64,000 bases of DNA, from NCBI RefSeq assembly GCF_947504145.1, contig NZ_CANNGQ010000004.1:434001-498000 (forward strand), read 5' to 3'. Positions 14,152 to 51,366 of this stretch are shown one piece after another (position 1 is the stretch's first letter; each line of letters starts with the position of its first letter). The notes below the pieces were generated by a model. It saw only the letters and a list, made by a program, of their open reading frames with translations. It was not told where the DNA came from and did not search any database. Position numbers and translations under genes: made by a program. Source of the stretch: an uncultured Microbulbifer sp. (GTDB lineage: Bacteria; Pseudomonadota; Gammaproteobacteria; Pseudomonadales; Cellvibrionaceae).

Positions 14152-14182
14152 CGAAGCTAATTACCTAGATGCGAAGCGGCTG

Positions 14183-14280
14183 CTGCCGGTACCGATTCGC
14201 CAGACCTTCCGCGAGAGGGACCTCGCGGAAGAGCCCCCAGGGATGGGTTCACGGCGTGTCTGGCGAATCGGTACCGGCAG
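14183..14280. repeat. Palindromic intergenic element A (23-bp perfect arms, two inner hairpins)
   Basis: Perfect inverted arms lie at 14183-14205 and 14258-14280 (CTGCCGGTACCG... and its reverse complement). Pairing can extend outward a further eight or so bases with two wobble-type mismatches. Inside are two hairpins. One is 14206-14231, a 10-bp stem (CTTCCGCGAG) with loop AGGGAC. The other is 14236-14247, CCCA/TGGG around loop GGGA. The element fills the space between two plus-strand genes. It shares its inner architecture with the element at 25292-25385. It encodes no protein and shows no transposase. Confidence 0.85.
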
Positions 14281-14335
14281 TGGCCGCGCCAACAGAGCTA
14301 GAACAAAGCTCCGAAAAAGATTCGAGAAAAAAACC

Positions 14336-24739: not shown

Positions 24740-25246
24740 ATGGCCAAACTGGAAATCCTCGAATTCCCCGATCCCCGTCTGCGCAAGGTGGCGGAACCCG
24801 TCACTGAGGTGACAGACACTCATCGCACGCTGATCGATGACATGTTTGAAACGATGTATGAAGCGCCGGGTGTGGGCCTGGCGGCGACGCAGATCAATGT
24901 GCACGAGCGCATTGTGGTGATTGATGTGTCAGAAGATCAGAGTGAGCCGCTGGTGCTGATCAACCCGGAGGTTGAGGTGCTGGATCCGGAGATTCACAAG
25001 TACGATGAGGGCTGCCTGTCTGTTCCCGGTTTCTATGAAACGGTGCAGCGGCCGCGCAAAATCCGCCTGAAGGCGCTGGATCGCAACGGCGAGACCTATG
25101 CGCTGGAGGCCGAGGGGCTGCTGGCGGTGTGCATCCAGCACGAGATCGATCACCTCGATGGCAAGCTGTTCGTGGATTACATCTCGCCGCTCAAGCGCAA
25201 TCGTATTCGTTCCAAGCTTGAGAAGGCGCATCGCCAGAGAGCTTGA
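24740..25246 (+). CDS. def: Peptide deformylase
   Basis: A 168-residue iron/zinc peptide deformylase that removes the formyl group from nascent protein N-termini. The three family motifs are intact: GVGLAATQ (44-51), EGCLSVP with metal ligand C92, and HEIDH with H134, E135 and H138. The ATG is preceded by AGG at suitable spacing. It starts the plus-strand series def-fmt-rsmB-trkA-trkH, though a palindromic repeat separates it from fmt. Confidence 0.97.
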
Positions 25247-25291
25247 TCCCCTAGGCCGGCGCCTTGAAGCCGGTCTTTGGGCGGCAAGGCA

Positions 25292-25385
25292 CCGGGGAGT
25301 TGCTTTCAGAACCGCTGTGTATACATCCCTGTACGCTGCGGCGGCGACGTCCCTGTCGCCGACGCTTCTGAAAGCAACTCCCCGG
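25292..25385. repeat. Palindromic intergenic element B (20-bp perfect arms, two inner hairpins)
   Basis: Perfect inverted arms lie at 25292-25311 and 25366-25385. The 54-base core holds a 7-bp hairpin at 25342-25361 (CGGCGAC, GTCCCT, GTCGCCG) and a smaller one around CATCCCTG at 25324-25331. Read on the minus strand, the core aligns with element A (14183-14280): loop AGGGAC, 18-19 bases, then GGGATG and T..CAC.GCG. The outer arms of the two are unrelated. The element lies between def and fmt and carries no gene. Confidence 0.85.
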
Positions 25386-25456
25386 CACCCTGCCTTCGCA
25401 TCCTAGTTTTAAGCTTCGTCGTCGAGCCCACTCCTTCTTTTCTGAAAGCATTTTCC

Positions 25457-26425
25457 ATGACCCTGAACATCATTTTTGCCGGCACCCCCGACTTTGCCGC
25501 CGTACACCTGCAAACCCTGCTCGACAGCGAACACAACGTCATGGCGGTCTACAGCCAGCCCGACCGCCCCGCCGGGCGCGGCAAAAAGCTGCTGGCGAGC
25601 CCGGTGAAGCAGCTGGCACTGGAGCACGGTATTCCGGTATATCAGCCGCTGTCCCTGCGAGATGAAGAAGCGCAGAAGGAGCTGGCGGCGCTGGACGCGG
25701 ACCTGATGGTGGTGGTGGCCTACGGGCTGATTTTGCCGCAGGTGGTGCTGGATACCCCGCATCTGGGCTGTGTGAATGTGCATGCCTCCTTATTACCGCG
25801 CTGGCGCGGCGCGGCGCCGATTCAGCGCGCGGTGGAGATGGGTGATGCCGAGAGCGGCGTAGCAATCATGCAGATGGAGGCGGGGCTGGATACCGGGCCG
25901 GTGCTGGTCGAGGCGCGCACGCCCATCGCGGCGGGCGAGACCGGTGGCAGCCTGCACGACAAGCTGGCGCAGCTGGGCGGGCCGGCGCTACTGGAGGCAC
26001 TGAAACTGCTGGAAAGCGGTACCGCGCAGCCGCAGACTCAGGACGACGCGCAAGCCAATTACGCGGGCAAGATATCTAAAGAAGAAGCCCGACTGGACTG
26101 GAGCCGGCCGGCGACAGAGCTGGAACGGCTGGTACGCGCGTTCAACCCCTTCCCGGTGTGCTGGACGGAGTATGTGGATAACAAGGGCAAACCGCAGCGG
26201 TTGAGGGTGTATGCGGCAAAGCTCGAGCAGGGTTGCCACACCGATGTGCCCGGGACAATTCTTTCCGCTGACGATGAAGGTATCCTGGTGGCCTGCGGGC
26301 GTGAGGCGTTGCGCCTGACTCAACTACAATTGCCGGGCAAGAAGGCGTTGCCGGTAGCGGAAATCCTCAAGGGGTACCGCGAGCTTTTCCAACCCGGTAC
26401 CCAGTTAGGCCAGAGCCATGAGTGA
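25457..26425 (+). CDS. fmt: Methionyl-tRNA formyltransferase
   Basis: A 322-residue Fmt that formylates initiator Met-tRNA. It has [19 protein letters not shown] at the N-terminus, the formyl-donor and catalytic block [19 protein letters not shown] (Asn, His), and [18 protein letters not shown]-terminal OB-type tRNA-binding domain follows. The ATG at 25457 gives normal length; upstream reading runs through the palindromic repeat and was rejected. Its stop overlaps the rsmB start by 8 bases. Confidence 0.96.
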
Positions 26426-51034: not shown

Positions 51035-51366
51035 AATAACCCTGAATTGGGGACAACTTTCTGAAAGGAAAGCCTTGTAATATCAAACACTTGTGCAGAA
51101 ATTAATCGAGGGAAGCGCACTGAGAAACCCCAGTTATCCACAGAGACCTGTGGATACCTTGGGGTAAACCGGTGCACTTTCGCGATTACTCCTGACAATA
51201 CAATGGCTTGAGAAAATGGCGCCCGCTCCCACCGCAGTAGTGCGCGGTTACGCCAACCCACCACCCCTCCCGCACCTAATAAAGGAAGGTGGCAGGCCGG
51301 CGGGATGACAACAGCCTGCCCCCACAAAAAATACCGGGTTCCCGGGCGGAGAAGCGCACGATATCG

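Follow-up and report, generated by a model that had tools for sequence, protein, structure and literature searches.

The window analysed here, a 64,000-nt stretch of DNA from an uncultured Microbulbifer sp., contains two copies (elements A and B) of a dispersed, mobile-looking repeat. We favour, with moderate confidence, the reading that the transcript of its GGA strand, the strand that carries GGA in its hairpin loops, is a putative two-site landing pad for CsrA/RsmA. Both elements stand at the top of the window's inverted-repeat list (Table 1). The RNA folds of elements B and A lie 9.9 and 10.9 SD under those of shuffled versions, each beating 200 of 200 shuffles, and the two-loop pattern, for which 0.05 occurrences are expected in the window, is found twice. 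A chance origin is rejected by these fold scores and the pattern count, together with the 61 genome matches and the covariation described below.

Table 1. Coordinates of elements A and B, their parts and the genes next to element B in the window.
Feature	Position	Strand	Basis
def, peptide deformylase, upstream neighbour of element B	24740..25246	plus	Pfam PF01327
fmt, methionyl-tRNA formyltransferase, downstream neighbour of element B	25457..26425	plus	Pfam PF00551, PF02911
Element B, whole hairpin	25283..25394	minus	inverted repeat I2; RNA fold z -9.9; covariance match G000:C4:459292-459384 minus
Element B, 5' outer arm P1 (differs among copies)	25366..25394	minus	inverted-repeat listing
Element B, 3' outer arm P1'	25283..25311	minus	inverted-repeat listing
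Element B, hairpin P2, hexaloop AGGGAC, C-G closing pair	25340..25363	minus	fold
Element B, hairpin P3, hexaloop AGGGAT	25321..25334	minus	exact RUACARGGAUGU match at 25323-25334
Element B, conserved left end ACGAAGC...GCGAAGG	25393..25419	minus	flank consensus, 61 copies
Element A, whole hairpin, second copy in the window	14176..14287	plus	inverted repeat I1; fold z -10.9; covariance match G000:C4:448186-448278 plus
Element A, hairpin P2, loop AGGGAC	14206..14231	plus	fold
Element A, hairpin P3, loop AGGGAT	14234..14247	plus	fold
Element A, conserved junction TTCACGGCGT	14248..14257	plus	invariant in a 33-sequence alignment whose members were retrieved by a pattern that includes this junction

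Element B is located between def and fmt with its GGA strand opposite to both genes, and element A between an M20 peptidase gene and a DDAH/ADI-type gene (Pfam). A sequence-only reading had described element B as a minus-strand element that shares its loops and their spacing with element A, and rechecking the sequence bears out the letters, the strand, the loops and the spacing (GGA to GGA, 23 nt in element A and 24 nt in element B). The paired outer arms that it reported are present as well but extend farther than it gave them: the near-perfect outer stem spans 25283-25394, and the conserved left end reaches 25419. The inner stem pairs as it described, except that a single T-C mismatch farther down the P2 (hairpin-1) stem had been omitted.

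A genome-wide covariance search, which the same reading had proposed as the test that could refute it, left the proposal standing: a model built from seven copies matches 61 places in the own 4.36-Mb genome at E 2e-5 or better, with covarying stems. Ten weaker rows comprise nine on the opposite strand of known places and one new place, and the copies make up 0.13% of the genome. From the outside in, a copy consists of conserved ends (ACGAAGC...GCGAAGG on the left and CCGCCAC on the right in the flank consensus of the 61 copies; conserved, not inverted), a long P1 stem with a freely varying middle, the hairpins P2 and P3, and the junction, which is TTCACGGCGT in the common type of copy. Mean arm identity is 0.62 over 54 of the 61 own copies, seven copies of 100 nt or more being omitted, and up to six pair types occur per P1 position. 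The P2 stem is variable and recurs as cassettes, and its loop is A(N)GGAY; the P3 loop is similar. GGA is retained in P2 of 61/61 and P3 of 57/61 own copies, which were retrieved by a model that includes the loops and favours intact ones, and three of the four P3 exceptions are extra hairpins inserted there. Seven own-genome copies carry extra modules at the tip. Where two close relatives were compared at an orthologous site, one of them has such modules as well, and further GGA-loop hairpins are present in some copies (L095; G255). Modules inserted in P3 of L087, L091, L095 and G049:C1:491942 add hairpins, some with a GGA loop on the opposite strand.

The P2 stem ends exactly three pairs under the loop in 20 of 114 distinct diverse copies, and all 20 continue with tandem G-A/G-A pairs; a P2 with at least three pairs could not be placed in 18 of the 114. 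By eye, tandem G-A pairs are absent from the P2 stems of the window copies. A census of perfect hairpins (5-6 nt loops, stem of at least 8) in three regions gave an A(N)GGAY loop in 3/47, 7/68 and 12/70 cases; it adds little and did not sharpen the case.

The element was found in 27 of 38 genomes, the own genome counted. Within Microbulbifer the lowest copy numbers are 0, in an 80%-complete genome, and 1, and the highest is at least 112; a fuller search of one genome of the genus gave at least 137. An order sample contained the element in 48/145 genomes and 35/91 genera, a class sample searched with a second model in 29/185 genomes, and a phylum sample in 11/150 genomes, all 11 in the same class; these large surveys used stricter filters and counted the matches listed only, so that their copy numbers are lower bounds. 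A 29-letter tip stretch (one position G or T), exact in element A and present as a variant in element B, occurs among the matches listed in Marinobacter, Pseudomonas, Halopseudomonas, Xanthomonas, Stenotrophomonas, Shewanella, Alcanivorax, Haliea and others. Close kin of the element occur across Gammaproteobacteria. Plasmid- or phage-borne spread was rejected, as blastn gave no match for element B in plasmids and none for element A in phages. Two viral contigs (IMG/VR; L376, L377) hold the core pattern, and phage carriage could partly explain the wide range.

To examine the stems, we retained 62 copies of set lengths from outside Microbulbifer in which 17 or more of the 20 outer-stem pairs form, and used for covariation the 33 that are 82 nt long, leaving out 5-nt loops and the bulged P2 form. 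In these 33 well-paired, gap-free copies 95.2% of 1023 cells are paired, which, like the other paired percentages given here, is an upper bound owing to the pairing cut-offs on the copies. Changes on both sides are found at 21 of 31 pairs, and the covariation score is 0.688 versus 0.153 for shuffled and at most 0.161 for slid partners. In the P2 stem, which was unselected for pairing, 88.8% of the cells are paired and both sides have changed at 9 of 10 pairs. Of 30 def-fmt loci retrieved from 48 matched genomes, 29 gave readable spacers; 18 of these contain the element and 11 lack it. The alignment distinguishes 12 arms among the 18 copies, yet 319 of their 324 arm pairs are Watson-Crick. Selection on structure, one of the two causes that the sequence-only reading had offered, is supported by these orthologous copies and by the strand bias that follows. 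At L128 and L129 (def-fmt) and at G041:C1:3806458, compared with the own genome (G000) and G048, the element and a terminator-like hairpin appear as if interchangeable.

On the GGA strand of 96 diverse copies (11 of 107 with fewer than 13/20 pairs being dropped), G-U pairs outnumber A-C mismatches 63 to 16 (p 9e-8), a comparison unaffected by the cut-offs, which count both alike. The ratio is 13 to 6 in 111 mostly genus-level copies, alone not significant. By orientation to the neighbouring genes it is 10 to 0 in antisense copies and 17 to 6 in sense copies. The GGA strand is therefore the strand kept foldable, and because the excess is also seen in antisense copies, host transcription does not explain the strand bias. 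Wobble pairs are nevertheless few for a stem made of RNA (63/1920 cells in the diverse set, 13/1998 in the mostly genus-level one). The simpler reading of the folded molecule is RNA, although an ssDNA hairpin would also favour G-T over A-C.

The GGA hairpin loops of the repeat fit the published binding preferences of CsrA. Passages in PMC7652899 give the SELEX consensus RUACARGGAUGU, the CsrB repeat CAGGA(U/A/C)G and the RsmE hexaloop type ANGGAN; the hexaloops of the repeat are of this last type, and its P2 loops read CAGGATG in 30/111 and CAGGACG in 5/111 copies, as in CsrB. The CsrA idea preceded the genome search for the 12-letter consensus, which makes that search a test. The own genome contains the exact consensus at five places, 5/5 within repeat copies and one of them element B, and the backward control gave 0. 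The five are related copies of one sub-type, near one event and not five independent ones, and the exact consensus is missing from 56 of the 61 own copies. The SELEX account also indicates that very stable stems may suit CsrA poorly (PMC7652899). A distance of 10-63 nt between GGA sites is described in a passage of PMC4066749 as bridgeable by one CsrA dimer, and the spacings in elements A and B fall inside this range. In the order sample the element occurs in 48/136 genomes with CsrA versus 0/9 without (p 0.024); this co-occurrence is weak, and both genome size and descent confound it.

The mechanism that we propose would operate as follows. Upon transcription, the GGA strand would fold three-way, with the long sequence-free P1 lifting P2 and P3, whose loops (5-6 nt, A(N)GGAY) are of the kind recognised by the dimeric RNA-binding protein CsrA/RsmA. 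One dimer could then clamp both loops and would be kept from its mRNA targets, so that all copies jointly might act as a scattered CsrA sponge. The sequences show the repeat family, its covarying structure, the strand kept foldable, the conserved loops and the fit to the published CsrA consensus, whereas GGA-strand transcription, CsrA binding, the mode of spread and the cellular relevance of titration are inferred. Orientation to the neighbouring genes is random: 50 genus-level copies comprise 22 sense, 18 antisense and 10 convergent, and 77 diverse copies comprise 23 sense, 23 antisense, 23 convergent and 8 divergent. About half of the copies would therefore need a promoter of their own, and none was recognised in the flank consensus of the 61 copies (consensus only). 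A sense-strand mRNA element was rejected, as orientation gives it no support.

The repeat has spread, because hairpins that are 98% alike lie in unrelated flanks (48% identity) and copy number jumps between Microbulbifer species. Close copies in two genomes are in opposite orientation in 16/16 pairs. With the origin placed by assumption 25-30 kb from def-fmt, there is no replication-strand bias in two genomes (39/43 and 31/37, from the 82 of 137 and 68 of 98 matches that were listed), and a lagging-strand preference was rejected. About 26 kb downstream of def-fmt, at window positions 51128-51163, lies an inverted repeat with TTATCCACAG, which is DnaA-box-like and which we take to mark the probable origin region. 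Among the element-free sites that were aligned, three (G000:C4:461809, G048:C2:1205047 and G049:C1:413050) retain the outer ends and probably represent deletions. G048:C2:1420792 looks truly empty when compared with G000, where the copy lies inside the loop of a terminator hairpin. No clean target duplication was found by eye at the aligned element-free sites.

The sequence-only reading had advised looking for a REP-type tyrosine transposase gene, and the suggestion is not supported: the own genome has a single weak match to the Y1 transposase family PF01797 (G000:C2:328505-328834), and the copy-rich genomes G012 (49 copies) and G022 (46 copies) have none. A REP driven by a RAYT was rejected for this reason. 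At least one Y1_Tnp match is found in 45 of 48 genomes of the genus, including element-poor ones. In the gammaproteobacterium G255 the hairpin is nested inside a longer, shared, MITE-like element, of which 17 copies were retrieved (L382-L398), with nested hairpins and several A(N)GGAY loops. Exact CAGGNTGTTGAAA ends border 13 of the 17 on one side or both (4 on both), and the central tip is inverted relative to the flanks in 4 of the 17. Such tip inversion would account for the random orientation, but in three syntenic Microbulbifer regions the listed orthologous copies are all on the same strand (by eye). An inverted pair of copies (G047:C1:453041-453214 and G049:C1:487345-487527) differs throughout between two species whose flanks are about 89-98% alike.

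The most serious alternative, unlikely as we judge it, is a selfish ssDNA repeat of REPIN or MITE kind, in which the GGA strand would fold as DNA, a transposase would recognise loops and mismatches, and the likeness to CsrA sites would be a by-product. The swings in copy number within the genus, the near-identical hairpins in unrelated flanks, the opposed close copies and the nesting in G255 all agree with it. Against this, two copy-rich genomes are without a Y1 transposase match, replication-strand bias is absent among the matches listed, variation of the loops stays within what CsrA tolerates, and pairing is kept in resident copies across 18 species, which would be unexpected of a dead insertion.

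Two further explanations are given little credence. Palindromes can undergo correction through template switching, and hairpin-templated DNA copying of this sort could keep the arms matched without selection. Such recurring copying, the other cause suggested by the sequence-only reading, may contribute, because wobble pairs are few in all; in the mostly genus-level set of 1998 cells, drawn from copies with at least 14/18 pairs, 97.8% are Watson-Crick with few intermediates, and paired changes separate copies with identical cores. But a strand-blind process would not yield the excess of G-U over A-C, and it should erase both the tandem G-A pairs of the 20 three-pair P2 stems and the stem-base mismatches, of which at least one was seen by eye in 18/18 def-fmt copies. 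Just as improbable to us is a structural 3'-end element (an mRNA stabiliser, a terminator substitute or a protein-binding site; cf. REP/BIME) for which only hairpin stability matters. The positions suit it, as 0/50 copies lie inside genes or between divergent genes (three genus-level regions, simple gene caller), convergent gaps are over-represented (23/77 diverse copies versus 89/651 gene pairs), and a G+C-rich terminator-like hairpin replaces the element in some species at the sites named above. Against it, the stem varies more than any other part of the repeat, with loops and junction fixed, though both are in the search pattern; the selection on folding tracks the GGA strand instead of the mRNA strand, and the flank consensus shows no T-run behind the element.

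The nearest named family is TwoAYGGAY (RF01731), described in PMC4333381 as a proposed CsrA binder with two AYGGAY-loop hairpins on a poorly conserved external stem and tandem G-A in a stem. The repeat has the same plan, with two NGGAY-type loops, and tandem G-A is seen in one stem of some copies (the 20 of 114 above). Unlike TwoAYGGAY, it is dispersed in dozens to more than 100 copies, and the window copies have ARGGAY loops (AGGGAC, AGGGAT), with G where Y is asked, and a P2 without tandem G-A; ATGGAT, which fits AYGGAY, is common among diverse copies. RF01731 scores 31.9, 31.7, 29.1 and 23.1 bits at diverse loci versus a gathering threshold of 43 bits, the two best falling on further copies of the repeat, and it has no match at the window copies. 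No Rfam family exceeds its threshold at the window elements or at the 18 tip-stretch loci, of 117, that were compared with Rfam. Because the scores are below threshold and unrelated hairpin models, miRNA included, score as high at the same loci, the likeness is one of anatomy, not of score; the repeat is therefore not filed under TwoAYGGAY, although it may work like it. The earlier statement that no named family could be matched with certainty thus holds for scores, but overlooked this shared architecture.

CsrB, CsrC, RsmY and RsmZ, as characterised in passages of PMC7652899, also present GGA in hairpin loops, including CAGGA(U/C)G, to which CsrA dimers are expected to bind; they are dedicated many-site genes, whereas the repeat consists of many dispersed, usually two-site units. 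REP, REPIN and BIME sequences, as described in PMC3116915, resemble it in being intergenic, palindromic and high-copy with inverted close copies. REP sequence is conserved and RAYT-linked, unlike the repeat, whose arms are free (the mean identity given above) and which does not require a RAYT. ERIC and other MITE-type palindromes are intergenic, about 100-130 bp long and conserved throughout; the repeat is a similar intergenic palindrome, but most of its stem is not conserved. In open-access literature, judged from titles, abstracts and passages, no account of this repeat was found. New in form is a free-stem, high-copy dispersed repeat that bears a paired CsrA-type site.

As a named repeat, the element would add to the annotation of spacers in Microbulbifer, Marinobacter, Xanthomonas and Stenotrophomonas. 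Its copies amount to hundreds of natural replicates in which the evolution of hairpin stems can be tested. More tentatively, a mobile repeat may possibly have adopted the CsrA hairpin as conserved cargo; with more than 100 copies in some species, and some invertible tips, it would form a distributed CsrA/RsmA sponge that scales with copy number, so that gain and loss of copies would retune a global regulator. If the RNA is made and bound, CsrA sites would be carried as dispersed repeats too, beyond dedicated sponge genes, the orphan TwoAYGGAY motif would gain a genomic setting, and copy number would be a heritable dial for a global regulator.
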